Shown: positions 40,118-56,031 of the stretch, one piece after another
Numbering within the stretch: the first letter of the stretch is position 1
Layout of the letters: each line of letters begins with the position of its first letter
From: Phycisphaerales bacterium
Lineage (GTDB): Bacteria; Planctomycetota; Phycisphaerae; Phycisphaerales; UBA1924
Reading direction: 5' to 3'
DNA: 64,000 nt
NCBI GenBank assembly: GCA_029260345.1
Contig: JAJDDK010000002.1
Location: forward strand, 310,001 to 374,000
Translations under genes and position numbers: made by a program
The notes under the pieces: model-generated
What the model was told of the DNA's origin: nothing
Seen by the model: the letters and a program-made list of their open reading frames with translations, nothing else
Database searches by the model: none

Positions 40118-40789
40118 TTAGCGGCCGTTGCCCATGATTTCGTTGTCGGTCATGGGCGGGATGCCGCCACGATTGCGCTCATTGCGAAGCTCAAGGGCGC
40201 GGCGTTCGAGCTCGGCCCATGCTTCACCGGAACGAAGGCGCGTCTCAAGCTCTTCGATCTGCTTGAGGCGATCGTGGTAGGCGCTGTCCACGTAGCGGTC
40301 GTCGAGTTCCATCAGCACAAACGTTTTGTAGTAGCCGTTGGGTTCGACATACGTTTCCTTGCGCTTCACGGATGAGCCGCGCAAAGCGTAGCTGGCGACC
40401 ACGGCGTTGACGTCCTGGAATCGCTGAAGCAAACGTAGATCATCCGCGGCTTCCACCTGTTCCTGGAAGTTGCGCTGCAGGACATCGACGCGGGCGTCAA
40501 TCGTGAGCGCCAGGGCCTGACGAGCCTGATTCACGGCAAGCGACTCGGCGATGGTCTGATTGGCGCCGACTGCTTGCGCCGTGACCATGAGGCGGCCATC
40601 AGCGCTTTGTGGCTCAGTTTGATACCAGACCGGTTCAAAGGCGCGCGTGACTTCAGTGCGCTCCGGCAACACCTTTGGTTGTTTCACGCGGTTGCGCTTG
40701 CATCCGGCGATTGGCGCGACGAGCACGACTGCGGCAAGCGCCATGGACAGCCCCACCCGTCGAGTCATGATGCGAATTTCGTGCGACAT
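40118..40789 (-). CDS. LPP20-like lipoprotein
   Basis: The start is ATG at 40789 (MSHEIRIM), with AGGAG upstream. The 223-residue product has lipobox IAGC followed by KRNRVK, then a conserved region (VTAQAVGANQTIAESLAVNQARQ in part) typical of LPP20-type proteins, where an alpha/beta domain carries A...A..AR. The C-terminal third is a charged helix. The divergent neighbour at 40866-41942 has a similar domain, so the two are probably functional partners in the envelope. Confidence 0.65.
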   Translation of the reverse strand: MSHEIRIMTRRVGLSMALAAVVLVAPIAGCKRNRVKQPKVLPERTEVTRAFEPVWYQTEPQSADGRLMVTAQAVGANQTIAESLAVNQARQALALTIDARVDVLQRNFQEQVEAADDLRLLQRFQDVNAVVASYALRGSSVKRKETYVEPNGYYKTFVLMELDDRYVDSAYHDRLKQIEELETRLRSGEAWAELERRALELRNERNRGGIPPMTDNEIMGNGR

Positions 40790-40865
40790 CGCCCCGGTCT
40801 CCTGATCTGTCGTGAATGATCCGATGAAGGGAATATCGGAGAATGAACGGGGGCGGATAAGAAGG

Positions 40866-41942
40866 ATGATGCACGGTGGAAACACCAACCGGACCTTGAG
40901 GGCCGCTGCCGCATTCGGAGTGGCGTTCGTTATCGGTCTGCCGAATTTTTCTTGCGCATCAAAGCAGTTCGAAGCGGCCTCGGACGACGCAAAGCCAATG
41001 TGGGTGGACCGGCCTCAGGAGGGCGCCGATGGGCGCGTTCTGGTGGGTGTCGGGGTTGGCAGGACGCGGCCAATGGCGGTGGACGCCGCGTTTGCGCGGC
41101 TCGCACAGTCAATTCAAGTTCGAATTATCGCGGATGAAAAGGCGAGATCGTCGGGTGAGACTCGAGTGATCGATGGTCAGCGAACGGGATCAGCGCAGTC
41201 TTCAATGGATCGATCGGTGCGGCTTGTCGTTGATCAGCGGCTCGCAGGCGTCATGATTGATCGCGCATGGCAGAACCCCACGACAGGGGAATGGCATGCG
41301 CGTGTCCTGCTCGATCGCAAGGAATCCGGACGCGCCCTTGATCAAACAGTGAATGAACTTAGGCGCCGTTCGCAAACAGCGCAGCACCGCGCGACTGCCG
41401 TGGCGGGCTGGGAGCAGATCGCGGCGTGGCGCGAAGCGCTTGAAGCAACCCTAGAAGCGATTGACGCCGCGAATGCGAGGGATGCGGTTTTGTCGTCTGG
41501 CGCCTGGGCTGTTTCACATGACGAACTCCTCAATGCGATGGAAACAGCTCAGCGCGGCTGGGACGAGGCACGCGCTCGGGCACGGATTGCGGTGCAGTGG
41601 ACGACGTCGTCGAGCGCCTCGATTGGGCGCGCCGTATCGGATCGCATCAATGAACTGGGTCTGTTGACGTTGGTTGGAGATGCTGATCTGGTGATCCAGT
41701 GTGATTTGTCGTTGGTCACGAGCGGCGCATTTGATGGGCGGACTCGTGCGACGCAATGGGAATTGACGATCCAGGCGCTGGCGCCGGAGAGTCGGCGGTT
41801 TATTGCAAGCCGACGTGAGACTGGCGCCGCAGTGTCCCGCAATGATCCGGAACGAGCGGCGCGCGATGATGCAATGCGCCGATTGGACGTGATTCTTCCG
41901 GGTTTCCTGAACGACGTCTTCGCACGCGGCGGTTCACTCTGA
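40866..41942 (+). CDS. LPP20-like lipoprotein, larger paralogue
   Basis: The start is uncertain: ATG at 40866 or 40869 lies very close behind AAGAAGG, and GTG 40812 or ATG 40824 would overlap the divergent gene's leader. From 40866 the product has 358 residues: a signal peptide with lipobox FSC, an LPP20-like region (GADGRVLVGVGVGRTRPMAV, then AFARLAQSIQVRI) and a longer C-terminal domain (LVIQCDLSLVTSGAFDGRTR) that may be a second similar fold. It is divergent from the 40118 gene with 76 bases between starts, and overlaps the Bfd-like gene tail-to-tail. Confidence 0.65.
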   Translation: MMHGGNTNRTLRAAAAFGVAFVIGLPNFSCASKQFEAASDDAKPMWVDRPQEGADGRVLVGVGVGRTRPMAVDAAFARLAQSIQVRIIADEKARSSGETRVIDGQRTGSAQSSMDRSVRLVVDQRLAGVMIDRAWQNPTTGEWHARVLLDRKESGRALDQTVNELRRRSQTAQHRATAVAGWEQIAAWREALEATLEAIDAANARDAVLSSGAWAVSHDELLNAMETAQRGWDEARARARIAVQWTTSSSASIGRAVSDRINELGLLTLVGDADLVIQCDLSLVTSGAFDGRTRATQWELTIQALAPESRRFIASRRETGAAVSRNDPERAARDDAMRRLDVILPGFLNDVFARGGSL

Positions 41943-42176
41943 GCGGCGATCCGGCGCTTGTGAATCAGTCAATGCATCCAATTCTGATTCGTTGAGCACT
42001 GGGAATGAATCGCGACCGGTGCGCAGCGCGGCTCGGATGTATGGAGCGCACATCGTGCATTCGCCACCGGCGCCGGTGCGCACGCGTAGCGCTTCAAAGT
42101 CGAGCGATTCCCGCTGGGACCGATCGATGAGCTCGCGGAAGGTGAGGTTGGTGCAGATGCAACGATTGACGCACAT
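41934..42176 (-). CDS. Bfd-like [2Fe-2S] protein
   Basis: The 80-residue protein has cysteines at 6, 8, 40 and 43 (CIC ... CTMC). The spacing C-X-C-X31-C-X2-C is exactly that of bacterioferritin-associated ferredoxin Bfd, which reduces ferric iron in bacterioferritin for release. It lies 3 bases after the pseudopilin-like gene and is probably the last gene of the operon controlled by the cobalamin riboswitch. No bacterioferritin gene is nearby. Electron transfer for another process, such as corrinoid reduction, is possible but speculative. Confidence 0.85.
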   Translation of the reverse strand: MCVNRCICTNLTFRELIDRSQRESLDFEALRVRTGAGGECTMCAPYIRAALRTGRDSFPVLNESELDALTDSQAPDRRSE

Positions 42177-42179
42177 GGC

Positions 42180-43025
42180 TTAGTCGTAGTCGAAGAGCTC
42201 ATTGGTGTCCTGCACGCCGAACCAGCCGAGGCCGACTGTCGTTGCATCAACGCCGTAGCCGAATCCAGGCACAGTTTGCGTGCGCGACTCTGAGGAAACG
42301 TGGCCGTCCAGCCATGCGGCGCCGGCGCGGCCTGCATGGCGGAAATGAATGGATGGATTCGCTCGGGCGCCGGGGAATTCCGGCCAAAATCGCGGCTCGA
42401 CGAAGCTGTATTCAATCAGGCCGCCAACGCCTTGGGCACTCGCGAAGGCGCTATCCGTGAATGCGATTGTTTCACTCGGTCTGCTGATGATTGACCGGCG
42501 GGCGCCTTGTGTTGTGGTTTGCACCATCCATGATCCGCCGGGGCCGGGTTGACGCGTGACGCCGATGAAAGCGTTGTTGTAGCCGTAGCCACCGCTGGAG
42601 TTTTCGAACCCGGCGCCGCTTTGGGCGAGCTGATCAAGCGTGAACTGAAATGTCGGGCAGGTTCGTGTGCGGGCGCTGGTCAAGGCGTCTTCTAGGTATA
42701 GGGTGATGACGCCGCGCTCGGACTGGAATGGTTGCGAGGCATGCTCGCGGGCGCCGTGCCAGCGTTCGAGGTTGGTTGATTCGATATTGGAGGCGCCAGG
42801 CATGTAGAGACCGTGGTGGTCGCTTGCATAGAGATCATTGGCGAGTTGAAGCTGACGAAGGTTGGAGGCGCATTGGGCCTGGCGGGCTGATTCACGCGCT
42901 GATGCAAGTGAGGGCAGCAGAATGGACATCAGCGCGCTGATCAATGAGAGCGTGATGAGTGTCTCAAGCAGTGTGACGCCGCGGCGGTGTGTTGGTCTGG
43001 CGCGATTCACGAGCCACTGCTCCAA
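42180..43025 (-). CDS. Type II pseudopilin-like protein with H-X9-DG motif
   Basis: The 281-residue protein has the prepilin cleavage/methylation segment RRGVTLLETLITLSLISAL near residue 15, an N-terminal pilin helix, and then the planctomycete-type globular part (ASARESARQAQCASNLRQLQ). The C-terminal HAGRAGAAWLDG fits the H-X9-DG pattern of planctomycete pseudopilins. It overlaps the upstream surface-protein gene by 19 bases on the same strand and precedes the Bfd-like gene by 3 bases. It may form part of a pseudopilus or surface fibre. Confidence 0.82.
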   Translation of the reverse strand: MEQWLVNRARPTHRRGVTLLETLITLSLISALMSILLPSLASARESARQAQCASNLRQLQLANDLYASDHHGLYMPGASNIESTNLERWHGAREHASQPFQSERGVITLYLEDALTSARTRTCPTFQFTLDQLAQSGAGFENSSGGYGYNNAFIGVTRQPGPGGSWMVQTTTQGARRSIISRPSETIAFTDSAFASAQGVGGLIEYSFVEPRFWPEFPGARANPSIHFRHAGRAGAAWLDGHVSSESRTQTVPGFGYGVDATTVGLGWFGVQDTNELFDYD

Positions 43026-44140
43026 TTTGCGAGCAGGATGGCAAGATCGGCGCCATTGACGACACCGTCTGTATTGAGATCAGCAGGCCCGTTCCCCGGA
43101 CCCCAAACGCCAAGCATGGTCGCAAGGTCCGCGCCGTTCACGACGCCGTCACCGTTGAGATCTGCAATGGTCGCTGCGGCGCGCACGTCGGCAACGGCAT
43201 CGATTTCCACAGACACTTCACCGAGCGGGCCGATCACGGCATTGACGCCCGTGCTGATGCGAATGAAATCGAAGCTGGTGAGATTCGCGGTTTCGCCAGT
43301 GGCGGCATCAATCGCCCAGGCAATGTCGAACGCATCGCCGCCACCGGAGCCCGCGTCGATACCGATTGTGAAAGGGTCGTCAGGGATGGTGTAGAAATCG
43401 CCCGCATCAATGGAAGGATTGTCCTCCGGGTTGTTGAGTTGATTGTCGGTGGCTGAACCTTGAGCGCCGGACAGGTCGCCGCGCAGGAGCGTCGGGCTGA
43501 GGTCTGCGTATCCGTAGATGGACTCCATGGCGCCGCCTGAGGTCGTGAGCGTGAAGGACTCGAACAGTGATGGCAAGCGGAAAGTTGTTGTATTCATCGG
43601 GCTCGGGGCGCCCGCGGGGAACCATGCGATGTTTGCGGGAGGCGTTGGCGTGCCAGAATCTGAATCCCACATCTGAGTCTCAATCGAACTGCTTGGGGAA
43701 GGGAGATGTGATCCTGGGATCAAGAACCATTGATCATCCGGCAGTCCGTTCCCGTTGTCGTCGCGCGCAATTTCGATAATCGCGGCTTCACCCCACCGCG
43801 TGGATGGCGTGCCGCTGGGCCAGAATGCATTGCCAAAGACGATGAAGTCCAGGCCCATGGGGTTCGCTGGATGATCTTCAACGGGACGCGCAAATCCAAG
43901 AGTGATTGAGCCGCCGAATCCGCCGAGCGTGACGCTGTTGGTGTTGTCCGGTGCGATTGTGCCGCCGCCAACGGGGGCGCCGAGCGCGAGTGATGGATTG
44001 CTGAAGGAGGCATTGTTGACGAACTGGCCGGGCGCCGGCGTGTAAACATGAACAACGATGGCAAAGTCAGCCGTTGCTACGTGTTGCACAACAAGGCCCG
44101 CGCAAAGGATTGGAGTGACGAACAAAGAAGTGCGCATCAT
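43007..44140 (-). CDS. Secreted surface protein with dockerin-like tail, cobalamin-riboswitch operon
   Basis: The 377-residue protein has a signal peptide (about 1-24) and a beta-rich body with GLDFIVFGNAFW, AIIEIARDDNGNGLPDDQW and FDFIRISTG. The phrase GNAF followed by D.NGNG.PDD.W resembles surface proteins that accompany BtuG-type cobalamin-capture proteins in Bacteroidetes; this is recall by pattern. The C-terminus has two dockerin-like units (ADLNGDGVVNGADLATMLGVW, ADLNTDGVVNGADLA). It overlaps the upstream gene by ATGA (44137-44140). Confidence 0.78.
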   Translation of the reverse strand: MMRTSLFVTPILCAGLVVQHVATADFAIVVHVYTPAPGQFVNNASFSNPSLALGAPVGGGTIAPDNTNSVTLGGFGGSITLGFARPVEDHPANPMGLDFIVFGNAFWPSGTPSTRWGEAAIIEIARDDNGNGLPDDQWFLIPGSHLPSPSSSIETQMWDSDSGTPTPPANIAWFPAGAPSPMNTTTFRLPSLFESFTLTTSGGAMESIYGYADLSPTLLRGDLSGAQGSATDNQLNNPEDNPSIDAGDFYTIPDDPFTIGIDAGSGGGDAFDIAWAIDAATGETANLTSFDFIRISTGVNAVIGPLGEVSVEIDAVADVRAAATIADLNGDGVVNGADLATMLGVWGPGNGPADLNTDGVVNGADLAILLANWSSGS

Positions 44141-45348
44141 TTGGACTCCCTTCCCCAGTTCGCAAGCAGCATTGCCAGATCAGCGCCATTGACGACGCCG
44201 TCGTGATTCAGATCGGCGAAGAAGTTGTCACTTGCGAAGATTGCGAGCAATGAAGCGAGATCGTCACCTGCGACTTCATCGTCGCCATTGAGATCGCCTG
44301 TGATGCGACCGCTCGTCGCAAACCAACCGGCGAAGTCGGTCAAGAGCAATTCATCCGTGCCAGGGTTGAAGGCGGCGCCGAAAAATCCCGAGCCGTTGCC
44401 GAGCGGATCCAGACGCTTCACCTGCGCAGGGCTTTTCGTGTCGATGGCGACACCGCTTTCGATGATGGTGTTCAACGCGCTGGCATTGATGACGGCAACG
44501 TTTCCAAAATCTCCAGCGTCAAAGTCGCCGCCGCCGACGATGAGGGCGCCGTTGCGATCGAACACCAGCGTGCTGGCGGACAAGAGATCGGCGAGAAACA
44601 ACCCGTCGTTTTCGAAGTCGACGCCGGAGGACCATTCCGCCAACGTAAATCGCTTGATCCATCCGGTCTCACTCGTGCCTGGTGTGTTTGGGGAGTTGTC
44701 GAAGCCGTTGCTTGTGTAGATAGCGCCTTCGTCGTCAATCGCGATGCCGCCACTGGCGCCGTCGATGTTGTCGATGACGATTGGGTTTTCGGGGGCTGCC
44801 GGATTGCTTGTTGTGTCGAGCACGGTCACGAACGCCGGTTGCCCGAAGTCGCCACCAGTGATGGCGAGTGATTGCTCATCAATCCAGGCGGCGGCGAAGT
44901 GGTTGACCGCGAAAGCCGCGGCGTTTGTCGATGTCAGCGTTGCGGGAGTCCTGGCATTGAGCAGCGCGGCGTCAAAAACAATGACTGGCTTGTTGAATCC
45001 TGCGCCAAGCGCAATACGCGTTCCGCCCGGTGACACCACAAGAAACCCAGGATCGACCGGAGCGGACAAGATTGAAGCATCAATCGTCGCGGCGACGTTG
45101 TGAATATTTGAACCAACTTCCGATTCAAGAAGCACTTCCAACCCGGTCGCCGTGATGAGCCTGCCATCGGGCAACACAGCGACGGCGACGCCGAACGATC
45201 CTGGCGCGATCGTTGGCTGGGTGACGTTTCGATACCAATCGCCGTATTGGTGAAATAAGTCGGCCGATGCACTGGATGTCATCAGCAAGAGGCCGACGGC
45301 AGTAGTAGCACACGGCGCCCAAGCCCTTCGACAAAAAATGGAACGCAT
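44137..45348 (-). CDS. Secreted beta-propeller-like protein with dockerin-like tail, first gene after cobalamin riboswitch
   Basis: The 403-residue protein has a signal peptide (about 1-29, ending SASA), then repeated strands of propeller type (VAVAVLPDGRLITATGLEVL, FLVVSPGGTRIALGAGF, GGIAIDDEGAIYTSNGF, TLVFDRNGALIVGGGDFDAG). Two dockerin-like units end it (GDLNGDDEVAGDDLASLL, ADLNHDGVVNGADLAMLLANW). It is the first gene behind a B12 riboswitch. In Bacteroidetes the surface propeller BtuG captures cobalamin, so this may be a planctomycete analogue displayed by a different tail. Direct homology to BtuG is not claimed. Confidence 0.78.
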   Translation of the reverse strand: MRSIFCRRAWAPCATTAVGLLLMTSSASADLFHQYGDWYRNVTQPTIAPGSFGVAVAVLPDGRLITATGLEVLLESEVGSNIHNVAATIDASILSAPVDPGFLVVSPGGTRIALGAGFNKPVIVFDAALLNARTPATLTSTNAAAFAVNHFAAAWIDEQSLAITGGDFGQPAFVTVLDTTSNPAAPENPIVIDNIDGASGGIAIDDEGAIYTSNGFDNSPNTPGTSETGWIKRFTLAEWSSGVDFENDGLFLADLLSASTLVFDRNGALIVGGGDFDAGDFGNVAVINASALNTIIESGVAIDTKSPAQVKRLDPLGNGSGFFGAAFNPGTDELLLTDFAGWFATSGRITGDLNGDDEVAGDDLASLLAIFASDNFFADLNHDGVVNGADLAMLLANWGRESK

Positions 45349-45397
45349 TGATTCATCCTCGATCTCACTCCGATTCGCGCGGAGCGGCTCCCTGCCG

Positions 45398-45495
45398 GAA
45401 AAACTCCCGCGGCTGAGGTTTCAAGGATTGGGGCCGGTGTCTCGCGATCGCGGGGAGCGCGCGGAGACTTCGCCGGCCGCCCCTAAAACCGCGGG
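45398..45495 (-). promoter_or_regulatory. Candidate expression platform of the cobalamin riboswitch
   Basis: On the minus strand CCCGCGG (45495-45489) can pair with CCGCGGG (45412-45406), which is followed closely by TTTTT (45403-45399). The pair encloses a strong inner hairpin between about 45430 and 45481. This would be an intrinsic terminator formed or melted by the upstream aptamer. Read by eye; an alternative translational mechanism is not excluded. Confidence 0.4.
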
Positions 45496-45514
45496 GGTGG
45501 CGCAACACTCGTCA

Positions 45515-45690
45515 ACGGCAGGTCTTCCGGCTCTGGGCTCGGCGAGCTGTGCCTTCCCGCCGCAGTGATTGCGGCAGTGGCATTTGCGTGGCTCGCGTCA
45601 GCACCCATTACGGCGGCGCGTCCGCAGCGGTTTTTCACCGCTTTCCCTCTTCGTCTCATGCTCGCTTTTGGCGAATATGAGAAACCTTTG
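45515..45690 (-). promoter_or_regulatory. Cobalamin (B12) riboswitch aptamer
   Basis: On the minus strand the core elements appear in order: GGGAAAGCGGTGAAAAACCG, then GCTG.GGACGCGCC followed by GTAA, then ATGCCACTGCCGC, GGCGGGAAGGC, and finally GAGCC.GGAAGACCTGCC, the conserved B12-box type sequence. The leader lies about 170 bases upstream of the propeller gene at 45348. Cobalamin binding would repress the four-gene operon below. Boundaries are approximate. Confidence 0.93.
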
Positions 45691-45698
45691 ACGAAAAC

Positions 45699-45728
45699 AA
45701 CGTACGGCGCCCGTGGTTCCATTGTCAA
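45699..45728 (-). promoter_or_regulatory. Candidate promoter of the riboswitch operon
   Basis: On the minus strand TTGACA (45728-45723) and TACGTT (45704-45699) are separated by 18 bases. Transcription would start near 45692, just ahead of the aptamer. Confidence 0.5.
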
Positions 45729-53203: not shown

Positions 53204-54412
53204 ATGAAGGGACTCATCGCAATCGGTCTGACGGTTCTTGGAGGGTTCGGCGCGTTCGCCTGGTCGCCGGATCGGCCTGATTCATCGAATGGTGAATCGG
53301 TTGGTTTTCGCATGGTCGGCGAGCCGATCCCGGTCGGGCTGATGCCGACCACGCCGCTGCTGACGGATCTGGATGCGGACGGCGACATCGACGTCATCGT
53401 CGTGTGCGGCCCGTGCTGCGGGCGCGAGGTCTGCGAGGACTCGGGCCACGCGCAAGTGCTGCTCAACGACGGCGCCGGGCGCCTCACCAAACGTGATGAG
53501 CGGATCCGCCTCGGCGGAACGGCGCTGGGCGGGGCGACGGGGGATGTGAATGGTGATGGGCATATGGATGTCGTGGTGCATCATCATTCGTCATATGACG
53601 CCGCGGTGCTGCTGGGCGATGGCGCGGGCGGGCTGAAGCTGCATGGGTACGTGCCGCTGCATGATGGTGAGAGCGCGCACGTGCATTCGATCGCGCTGGC
53701 GGATGTGAACAGCGACGGCGATCTCGACATGCTGGCGACGCTGGTGGACGATCACGCGCTGGCGGTGCTGCTTGGTGATGGCGCAGGCGGTTTCGCGCCG
53801 GCGCTGGGGCAGCCGTACTTTGCGCAGCGGCATCCGTACGCGCAGCTCAACACGGTGGACATCAACGGCGACGGCGCCATCGACGCCGTGCTGACGGACA
53901 TGCGCGGCAACGGCATGACCGTTCTCACGGGCTCAGGCACGGGGATGTTTGCGCCGCTGCTCGGGTTCAATCTGAATACGACGATGCCGCTGACGAGCGC
54001 GGAGCGGCCGATGGCGTGTGCGCTGGGCGATGTGGACGGCGACGGTGATCTCGACGCGGTCGCGTTTATCGATGAAAGCCCGATCGCAGTGCTGATGATC
54101 AATCAGGGCGGGGGCGTGTTTGCGGAAGCCGCGGAGGCGCTGATCGATCTCGGCGCGCCGTGCGTTGGCGGCACGCTGGCGGATGTCACGGGCGACGGTG
54201 TGCTGGATGTCGTCGCGTCGGGGACGATGGTGACGACCGTGTCCATCGTGCCGGGGAGGCGCGGCGGAGGATTTGGGAAGCCGCGCTTGATTGAGGCGGG
54301 CGGAACGAGCCCGCATGTGGCGGTGGGGGATATGAATGGGGATGGGCGGGTGGATGTGGTGACAGGGAACTATGACGGGGGAACCGTGACCGTCCTCCTG
54401 GCTACTGAATGA
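53204..54412 (+). CDS. Secreted FG-GAP/VCBS repeat protein
   Basis: The 402-residue protein has a signal peptide (about 1-19) and about seven repeats with calcium loops such as DLDADGDID, DVNGDGHMD, DVNSDGDLD, DINGDGAID, DVDGDGDLD, DVTGDGVLD and DMNGDGRVD. They predict a seven-bladed propeller. An early Cys cluster (CGPCCGREVCED) is unusual for the family and may bind metal or form disulfides. A second VCBS gene follows. No membrane anchor or sorting tail is seen, so the product is probably periplasmic or exported. Confidence 0.85.
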   Translation: MKGLIAIGLTVLGGFGAFAWSPDRPDSSNGESVGFRMVGEPIPVGLMPTTPLLTDLDADGDIDVIVVCGPCCGREVCEDSGHAQVLLNDGAGRLTKRDERIRLGGTALGGATGDVNGDGHMDVVVHHHSSYDAAVLLGDGAGGLKLHGYVPLHDGESAHVHSIALADVNSDGDLDMLATLVDDHALAVLLGDGAGGFAPALGQPYFAQRHPYAQLNTVDINGDGAIDAVLTDMRGNGMTVLTGSGTGMFAPLLGFNLNTTMPLTSAERPMACALGDVDGDGDLDAVAFIDESPIAVLMINQGGGVFAEAAEALIDLGAPCVGGTLADVTGDGVLDVVASGTMVTTVSIVPGRRGGGFGKPRLIEAGGTSPHVAVGDMNGDGRVDVVTGNYDGGTVTVLLATE

Positions 54413-54478
54413 ACCTACGAACTCATGGAGAGTCAACTGTTCCTTGCACAAGGGCGCCTCAAGCGAAGGAGATCAACA

Positions 54479-55630
54479 ATGCGATGGCGCGCAATAGTGG
54501 CGGCGATGTCTTGGATCAGTCTCACGGCGCAAGCGCAAAGCGCGACGCCGATTGGCTCGGCGACATTTGAATCACACATGATCGACGTCGAGGGATCCAC
54601 GGTCGGCATCGCGGATGTCAACGGCGACGGACGGATGGACATTCTCAGCGCGGGGCGCCGGTTGTCCGTTCGACTCGGTGACGGCGCGGGCGGACTGCGG
54701 GCGCCGATGCATGCGCCGGCGGGCGATCAACCATCCGACCTCGCATTTGCTGATGTGAATCAGGACGGCCACATCGACATCGTGATCGCGAATCACGAAA
54801 CGCATTACGCCATGGTGCTCGTCGGGGACGGGCGCGGCGGCTTCACGCCGGGGCCGCACTCGCCGCTTGCGGTCGATGTTGATCCGCACCCGCACGACGT
54901 CGGCCTCGCGGATATGGACGGCGATGGGCTGGTTGATCTGCTGGTGGACCACTCGCCGCGCGGACCGGCGGACCCGGGTCTGCGGCGGGACGCGGGCGGC
55001 GTGCTGGTGATGCGCGGGCTCGGCGACGGGCGGTTCGAGTCGCCGGGTGAAGTCTTCGAAAGCGGCGGCGTGCCGTATCGGGGTTTCGCGGTCGGGGATC
55101 TGAATGCGGACGGGCGGTTTGATTTGGTGACGCCGCACGGGCGGGATTTGGGAGTGTTGTTGAACCAAAGCGAACCGGGGCGAGTTTCCTTTGAGCGTGG
55201 GAATCCGATCTCGGCGACGTCGCCTTTCCTCGTCATGCTCGCGGACTTCGACGCGGACGGCGCGATGGACATTATTTCCGCGGCGGGTGAAGACTCGGCG
55301 CGGGTCGAAGTGTTTCTCAATGATGGGCGCGGCGGGTTCGAGCCGGCGCCGCAGTCACCATTTCAACACGCGCGCGGCGGGAAAAACGTTGCGCTGGGCG
55401 ACTTCAATGGCGACGGCGTGATGGATGCGGTGGTGTCGGCGTACCGATCAACGGATGTGCTGATCATTCTGGGTGGGCGACAGGCGCTGGAAACGGCGCG
55501 CGTGCCGGCGGGTCATGACCATCCGTGGGGTCTAGCGGCGGGGGATTTGAATGGAGATGGGATGGATGATCTGCTGATTGTGGGCGACGGTGTGCAGCGG
55601 GGGCAGTTGTATATGAGTGTGGTGGAGTGA
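54479..55630 (+). CDS. Secreted FG-GAP/VCBS repeat protein, second copy
   Basis: The start is ATG at 54479 (MRWRAIVA), with AAGGAG at 54466-54471; an upstream frame from 54425 lacks one. The 383-residue protein has a signal peptide ending AQAQS and repeats DVNGDGRMD, DVNQDGHID, DMDGDGLVD, DLNADGRFD, DFDADGAMD, DFNGDGVMD and DLNGDGMDD. It is similar in plan to the 53204 gene and probably arose by duplication. A fragment of a third copy follows. Confidence 0.85.
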   Translation: MRWRAIVAAMSWISLTAQAQSATPIGSATFESHMIDVEGSTVGIADVNGDGRMDILSAGRRLSVRLGDGAGGLRAPMHAPAGDQPSDLAFADVNQDGHIDIVIANHETHYAMVLVGDGRGGFTPGPHSPLAVDVDPHPHDVGLADMDGDGLVDLLVDHSPRGPADPGLRRDAGGVLVMRGLGDGRFESPGEVFESGGVPYRGFAVGDLNADGRFDLVTPHGRDLGVLLNQSEPGRVSFERGNPISATSPFLVMLADFDADGAMDIISAAGEDSARVEVFLNDGRGGFEPAPQSPFQHARGGKNVALGDFNGDGVMDAVVSAYRSTDVLIILGGRQALETARVPAGHDHPWGLAAGDLNGDGMDDLLIVGDGVQRGQLYMSVVE

Positions 55631-55633
55631 GGG

Positions 55634-55810
55634 AGATTCGGGGACGACGGTCAGGACGGTGTTCGTCGTGCCGGGCACGCGAGGCGGGGGATTTGGGACA
55701 CCGCGTTTGATTGAAGCGGGTGGTAAGAGCCCGCATATTGCGGTGGCGGATATGAATGGGGATGGGCGGCTGGATCTGGTGACGGGGAATTATGATGGGG
55801 GAGGTGGGGG
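55634..55810 (+). pseudogene. Relic of a third VCBS gene, C-terminal fragment
   Basis: The translation from about 55650 (VVPGTRGGGFGTPRLIEAGG, then SPHIAVADMNGDGRLDLVTGN) matches the end of the 53204 gene (IVPGRRGGGFGKPRLIEAGG ...) residue for residue apart from a few changes. There is no start, and the frame runs past the homologous end into unrelated sequence. It marks the left border of the AT-richer SIR2-HerA segment. Confidence 0.8.
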
Positions 55811-56031
55811 TGTTGGTATTGGTAGATATGCAGTGAAATGTCAACACTGCATAGCTTTCAATATGGGGGCATTTTCACACATGCGCGAACTAGGCGCTCA
55901 ATCGAGGGGTGGATCCCCGCAGAACGCATAGTCCGAATCGCAATGCGATCGCGGGGAATTCAATTGATTAGATTGCCTTCACGCTAGAAATGAGTCATCT
56001 TGATTTCAAGATGCAAGAAAATTGCATTTTG
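55811..56031. other. Non-coding border of the SIR2-HerA segment
   Basis: About 220 bases of markedly more AT-rich sequence separate the VCBS relic from the HerA-like stop. I see no gene, terminator or inverted repeat strong enough to name. A left end of an inserted element could lie here. Confidence 0.5.

Follow-up and report, generated by a model that had tools for sequence, protein, structure and literature searches.

How does a planctomycete that depends on vitamin B12 obtain it, when neither a corrin-ring methylase nor a TonB-dependent receptor is detected in its genome? This question is raised by a locus in a 64,000-nucleotide stretch of DNA from a Phycisphaerales bacterium (UBA1924; GCA_029260345.1, contig JAJDDK010000002.1, positions 310,001 to 374,000), here called the window, in which a cobalamin riboswitch heads four genes on the minus strand. 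The genes, A to D, encode a predicted beta-propeller protein, a BtuH-domain protein, a prepilin-like protein and a small BFD-like [2Fe-2S] protein. We consider it likely, with a probability of roughly 0.8, that the operon is a vitamin B12 scavenging system of a B12-dependent planctomycete that seems unable to make the corrin ring. A planctomycete B12-capture operon had been proposed in the first-pass annotation of this DNA, and the proposal is supported by the riboswitch, by the homology of gene B to BtuH and by a riboswitch at all 12 loci where homologues of B were found.

The riboswitch and its four genes

An Infernal search with the Cobalamin RNA family gave a full-length match (103.1 bits, with the gathering score at 31.5; model positions 1-189 of 189), which confirms the near-consensus aptamer that had been read at 45515-45690. 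No other RF00174 match was found in the genome, an assembly of 3.4 Mb in 8 contigs with a completeness of 96%. Scans of the leader between the aptamer and the start codon found no terminator-like site and no promoter. Control is, therefore, likely translational. 

Neighboring genes are tightly packed: A shares an ATGA (44137-44140) with B, B shares a GTGA (43007-43010) with C, and 3 nucleotides separate the stop codon of C from the start of D. The genes flanking the operon on either side are on the plus strand. The two overlaps and the short gap between C and D make it very likely that all four genes are co-transcribed and translationally coupled. The riboswitch-headed, ATGA-coupled operon had thus been recognized correctly within the interval 41934-45728. 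The riboswitch, A and B were described there, but genes C and D were overlooked, including C, the most conserved component. Coordinates of all features are given in Table 1.

Gene B is homologous to B12-binding proteins of known structure. A single-sequence phmmer search of the PDB matched 8BLW chain B (1.4e-23) and 7BIZ (4.7e-20), and a profile built from 13 homologues matched 8BLW (BtuG1; 2e-33) and 7BIZ (BtuH2; 1.8e-26), with 7BIZ aligned end to end across the domain. 7BIZ is Bacteroides thetaiotaomicron BtuH2 with cyanocobalamin bound, and the BtuG1 of 8BLW has a fused BtuH domain (PMC8941943, PMC10404256). The second gene had been linked at the outset to partners of Bacteroidetes BtuG, and this is borne out by its kinship with BtuH2 and the BtuG1 H domain. 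Eight B12 contact residues have been named in BtuH2 (PMC8941943). Five of them are kept in B (Gln333 as Q39, Asn399 as N104, Phe401 as F106, Tyr510 as Y211 and Leu578 as L306), with the mid-domain register taken from a weak alignment, and the equivalents of Gln333, Asn399 and Tyr510 are invariant across the 13 planctomycete sequences. This homology suggests that B binds B12 and captures corrinoids through its BtuH domain.

Gene A was modeled with AlphaFold2. The model has a mean predicted local distance difference test (pLDDT) score of 79, with many blocks above 85 within residues 50-260 and a poor tail, and contains approximately 25 strands, as needed for six blades. Its closest structures are six-bladed Pizza6 designs and NHL propellers (Z of about 23 over 240 residues, root-mean-square deviation 2.6, VIA-align). 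A is thus predicted to be a six-bladed beta-propeller, and the model, together with a signal-like N-terminus, agrees with the earlier description of the first gene as encoding a propeller-like secreted protein. Identity with BtuG, whose structure had been suggested for comparison, was not supported. BtuG2 has seven blades, and no BtuG chain in the PDB matched A by single-sequence or profile search. BtuG chains were also absent among the 50 structural matches listed for A, which by itself excludes nothing. The identification of A as BtuG was, therefore, rejected, and A is better described as a predicted propeller occupying the BtuG position.

Both A and B begin with a signal-like hydrophobic stretch and end in a dockerin-like tail. 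The tail of B is above the cut-offs of Dockerin_1 (PF00404; 24.5 against 22.9 bits) and dockerin_GC (NF041540; 30.8 against 29 bits), and that of A scores 20.9 and 23.3 bits, respectively. The two proteins are probably secreted and held at the cell surface. Dockerin-like display instead of lipoproteins had been proposed for this system. The tails are present and no lipobox is visible in A or B, but the tails are not characteristic of the system: they recur on many other proteins of the same genome, and PEP-CTERM tails replace them in the systems of relatives.

Gene C is above the cut-offs of PF07963 (N_methyl; 21.6 against 21.2 bits), TIGR02532 (18.7 against 16.3 bits) and PF07596 (DUF1559; 24.0 against 23.3 bits) and below that of the TIGR04294 H-X9-DG model (13.1 against 19 bits). 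Conservation was measured over 118 different C sequences: the prepilin Glu (mature position 5) is kept in 98%, H225 and D235 in 97% each and G236 in 91%. A Cys at position 118 is found in all of them, and the W-x-G, GGYGYN, HFRH and DGH motifs in 91-99%. The DUF1559 family, with 68 paralogues in P. limnophila, has no known function (PMC10632474). Gene D matches Fer2_BFD (PF04324) at 27.0 bits against a cut-off of 26, and homologues of D are present in related operons. As a speculation, D might serve corrinoid reduction.

Table 1. Features of the riboswitch-headed operon, in window positions
Feature	Position	Strand	Basis
Cobalamin riboswitch aptamer, RF00174	45500..45704	(-)	cmscan 103.1 bits, E 1.1e-24
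Leader from aptamer to start codon; presumed expression platform	45349..45499	(-)	
Gene A, 403 residues, secreted beta-propeller (predicted) with dockerin-like tail	44137..45348	(-)	Open reading frame, AlphaFold2 model, structural matches
Predicted six-bladed beta-propeller domain of A, residues 34-348	44305..45249	(-)	VIA-align to Pizza6/NHL propellers
Dockerin-like tail of A, residues 351-394	44167..44298	(-)	Just under curated cut-offs
Gene B, 377 residues, BtuH-domain protein	43007..44140	(-)	Open reading frame overlapping A by ATGA
BtuH domain of B, residues 23-319	43184..44074	(-)	Family profile against PDB
Dockerin-like tail of B, residues 326-376	43013..43165	(-)	NF041540, PF00404
Gene C, 276 residues from GTG, prepilin-type DUF1559/H-X9-DG protein	42180..43010	(-)	PF07963, PF07596, TIGR02532; riboswitch linkage
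Prepilin cleavage site and hydrophobic helix of C (G11/VTLLE...; Glu at mature position 5)	42900..42980	(-)	
H-X9-DG motif of C, H225 to G236	42303..42338	(-)	
Gene D, 80 residues, BFD-like [2Fe-2S] protein	41934..42176	(-)	PF04324

Conservation of the operon across the class

A survey of 150 genomes of the class was conducted with B and with a profile of C. The B search found 12 further full-length homologues. At each of these loci a cobalamin riboswitch lies directly upstream, and the order is a first-slot gene, B and C. By tblastn, C was found behind B at 12 of the 12 loci and an A propeller ahead of B at seven; an eighth A-like propeller, in L040, was recognized from translated reading frames. 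The first slot is held by a DUF4465 protein in L038 (E 9e-55), L116, L117 and L121. Eight DUF4465 members have been shown experimentally to bind B12 (PMC13398666). Four sister-genus genomes have a sole riboswitch that heads a divergent BtuH gene, a putative PQQ-type propeller of about 475 residues, C and D, and in genome G084 the genes behind the riboswitch are B, C and D, with A missing. Gene A could be a second binder or an adaptor, in a slot that elsewhere holds a DUF4465 (BtuJ-type) protein, a PQQ-type propeller or nothing.

Exactly one cobalamin riboswitch was found in each of the 18 relatives tested, and in all 18 it heads an operon with B and/or C. More generally, most genomes of the class carry just one cobalamin riboswitch, which is unusually few, and many of these riboswitches serve genes for extracellular capture and not for biosynthesis.

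Because the DUF1559 family is large, the C profile found some match in 148 of the 150 genomes. The position of the best match is more informative. In 71 of the 99 genomes listed, it lies no more than 6 kb downstream of a cobalamin riboswitch on the same strand (median distance 2.3 kb), and the fraction is 38 of 44 among genomes with E below 1e-50. Riboswitches found separately in G119 and G084 raise the count to at least 73 of 99. With dozens of DUF1559 genes per genome of about 4 Mb, this linkage is not due to chance.

A second collection, of named genomes, gave a similar picture for the 80 best C homologues, nearly all of them labeled Phycisphaerae or Planctomycetota (one Verrucomicrobia and two Lentisphaera-type bins). 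A BtuH domain is encoded upstream of C in 68 of the 80 and a riboswitch lies ahead of C in at least 66 (55 by a motif search and 11 of the 14 remaining loci tested by Rfam). Several of the C loci lacking a riboswitch start at a contig end. The motif had a sensitivity of 11/13 with no false match in 570 kb of strand sequence and replaced a first pattern with a sensitivity of 6/13. The two collections share several contigs and, thus, are not fully independent samples.

The genes next to C vary. In L134 the riboswitch is followed by a PEP-CTERM protein, B and C and then, directly after C, by BtuF-, BtuD- and BtuC-like genes. The operon of L129 includes a PduO adenosyltransferase (1.8e-60), and the riboswitches of L144 and L145 each have C as their first and, it seems, their sole gene. 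C is the constant element, and its partners in the A and B positions are BtuH, DUF4465, propellers or none. This pattern suggests that C is a prepilin-like subunit dedicated to the system, class-wide even where A and B change.

Several related loci were observed in the course of the survey. In L035 (8806-11319) and L040 (9438-11996), a propeller and a BtuH domain share a single uninterrupted frame in the domain order of BtuG1; in L040 a PEP-CTERM-like stretch separates the two. An apparent A-B fusion in L032 was rejected as an artefact of an out-of-frame reading. Behind the second riboswitch of G008 (L143:4571-17793) is a long run of genes reading as cobalamin salvage genes, a TonB receptor with ExbB/ExbD/TonB, BtuF/D/C-like genes and CobQ, all named by eye except for the plug domain. 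G159, a planctomycete outside the class, encodes a 599-residue BtuH protein (L067:6822-8621) with a lipoprotein-like start and PKD-like sequence, as in BtuH2, behind a cobalamin riboswitch of 118 bits. Fused DUF4465-BtuH-like proteins stand right before C in L212, L216 and L222, from bins labeled Verrucomicrobia or Lentisphaera, and L216 also has a riboswitch. Unless these bins are mislabeled, the system may extend beyond planctomycetes. L209 (JANQQE010000021.1), deposited as Alphaproteobacteria, has the locus of class member G022 and looks like a mislabeled planctomycete bin.

Possible routes across the outer membrane

The organism has a use for B12. Its genome encodes MetH, a mutase-type (methylmalonyl-CoA mutase) B12 domain linked to a MeaB-like GTPase, and also a B12-binding radical-SAM-like protein; beyond the domain, these names were read from sequence. 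The corrin-ring methylase family PF00590 had no match in the genome and was present in 14 of 14 control genomes. De novo corrin synthesis is, therefore, very unlikely in this B12-dependent organism. The mass of vitamin B12 exceeds the limit of ordinary porins, so some outer-membrane route must exist. That limit is approximately 600 Da (PMC5394234).

The first-pass annotation had found no BtuB in the window, and the lack extends to the whole genome: neither the TonB-receptor barrel (PF00593) nor the plug (PF07715) had a match there, with positive controls matched in both searches. The plug was also missing from all nine genomes of the same family, each with a completeness of at least 96%. Of the 73 genomes in which C is linked to a riboswitch, 44 have no plug. 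TonB plug proteins in five operon-bearing genomes (L048-L052) were considered as B12 receptors and rejected, as no cobalamin riboswitch is nearby. For the inner membrane, a FecCD-type permease and its ATPase are present. A second FecCD match (C6:711743) was not accepted as BtuC since it sits, as judged by eye, among ABC-3-like genes of zinc/manganese-type transporters. GspE/PilB- and GspF/PilC-type genes are present as well.

These findings can be joined into a mechanism. At low intracellular cobalamin, the riboswitch would permit expression of the operon, and the surface-held B, perhaps with A, would capture corrinoids. C would most likely be assembled by the type II/type IV machinery into a pilus- or pseudopilus-like structure for presenting B12 or the proteins that bind it, or for moving them across the outer membrane, and an ATP-binding cassette (ABC) permease would complete import. 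We tentatively propose, while thinking it rather doubtful as a whole, that phycisphaeral planctomycetes import B12 without a TonB receptor through such a B12-regulated device, with C as its subunit and BtuH, BtuJ and propellers as interchangeable capture heads. Planctomycetes bind macromolecules such as dextran on pili-like fibres and then carry these molecules through an outer-membrane system into the periplasm (PMC5394234). The link to these fibres is an analogy and not evidence. If the proposal is true, the operon would be a molecular instance of this uncharacterized uptake. With a single small-molecule ligand, a riboswitch serving as its own reporter and one conserved gene for a prepilin, the question of fibre-linked uptake would become directly testable.

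Several observations weigh against scavenging by this operon or against the proposed part of C in it. Three of the eight BtuH2 contacts are changed in B (His476 to T, Trp511 to A and Trp577 to P), again with a mid-domain register from a weak alignment. The overall pattern implies that contacts to the nucleotide loop are retained and those to the corrin ring are partly different, and the affinity or corrinoid preference of B may differ from that of BtuH2. The AlphaFold2 model of C is poor (pLDDT 51) and unreliable outside the N-terminal helix, and a B12 site is not apparent. No BtuF was located in the genome, although no search was aimed at it, and in an assembly that is 96% complete a receptor could fall outside. 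In L140, C with its own riboswitch adjoins a riboswitch-headed TonB receptor with ExbB, ExbD and TonB (named by eye except for the plug domain), and C also occurs in G008 (L143), a genome with a canonical btu/cob operon. C is, therefore, not simply a substitute for BtuB. Its varied neighborhoods, with BtuFCD-like genes, PduO, a TonB system or C alone, instead tie it to B12 uptake and not to one binder, and show that it can coexist with BtuB.

Another possible explanation, which we hold to be conceivable but not probable, is that C is a type II secretion pseudopilin that helps A, B and their counterparts to cross the outer membrane, with B12 entering via some other porin-like or receptor protein. 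The prepilin signal and hydrophobic helix of C fit such a role, as do its secreted operon partners and the GspE/PilB- and GspF/PilC-type genes. However, no secreted binder is adjacent to the solitary C genes of L144 and L145, C is far under the GspG equivalog model (TIGR01710; 24.1 against 88.85 bits), and the PEP-CTERM or dockerin-like tails imply other sorting routes.

It is also possible, although unlikely, that an ordinary BtuB-type receptor was missed through an assembly gap or divergent sequence and that A, B and C play only an accessory part in capture, like the BtuG, BtuH and BtuJ proteins of Bacteroides. Some class members do have riboswitch-headed TonB receptors (G021, G143 and G066), and the L140 receptor even adjoins C. 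However, the plug is missing from all nine nearly complete genomes of the family and from most genomes with a riboswitch-linked C. In the genome studied here the barrel profile likewise had no match, with its controls positive, and the sole cobalamin riboswitch of each of the 18 relatives heads a B and/or C operon. Finally, the proteins might store corrinoids at the surface or in a matrix, or attach the cell to B12-producing partners. In general, dockerin-like and PEP-CTERM tails suit anchoring in a matrix or at the surface, and some pilin-like proteins act in adhesion. We think this reading highly improbable, since the repression-type control by intracellular B12 and the presence of BtuFCD-like genes and an adenosyltransferase in operons of this type indicate that the corrinoids are taken up and used.

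Two further observations concern other parts of the window. Three adjacent open reading frames at 53204-55931 (402, 401 and 104 residues) are mutually related in an all-against-all comparison, perhaps by tandem duplication with the third copy broken. At 40118-41942 is a divergent gene pair whose starts overlap at 40812-40888 and whose mature parts open alike; these may be paralogues.

Comparison with known systems

The riboswitch and the BtuH domain are of known kinds. What is new is their combination with a class-wide prepilin, with other anchors and with no TonB receptor detected. In the open-licence literature, no publication was found that joins pilin, riboswitch, cobalamin and planctomycetes, and the DUF4465 paper (PMC13398666) is silent on pilins. 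Riboswitch control and the FecCD-type ABC permease with its ATPase are shared with canonical BtuB-TonB-BtuFCD uptake, from which the system differs in the TonB barrel and plug, neither of which was detected in this genome.

Like the BtuG propellers of Bacteroides, A is a predicted secreted propeller encoded beside a BtuH domain with a cobalamin riboswitch upstream, and the single-frame proteins of L035 and L040 resemble BtuG1. In contrast to BtuG, A has a different predicted blade number, no detectable sequence kinship, no lipid anchor and no detected BtuB partner. B resembles BtuH2 and the BtuG1 H domain of B. thetaiotaomicron over the whole B12-binding domain, in five of the eight contacts and in its cobalamin-riboswitch locus. 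It differs in having no PKD domains or lipobox, in its dockerin-like tail, in its prepilin neighbor and in a genome where no TonB receptor was detected. BtuH-type B12 capture has been described as a trait of Bacteroidetes; the present findings place it also in a class of planctomycetes, where the surface anchors differ and BtuB appears to be absent. The B12-binding BtuJ/DUF4465 proteins (PMC13398666) hold the first slot of operons of the same type in several relatives, whereas the operon studied here has none, and the versions in relatives are accompanied by PEP-CTERM tails and the C prepilin.

C itself belongs with the DUF1559/H-X9-DG prepilins of planctomycetes, as it passes the Pfam cut-offs for DUF1559 and N_methyl. 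Within them, it forms a distinct and highly conserved subgroup tied to cobalamin riboswitches. This link between one conserved subgroup and vitamin B12 is the first functional lead that we have found for this huge prepilin family.

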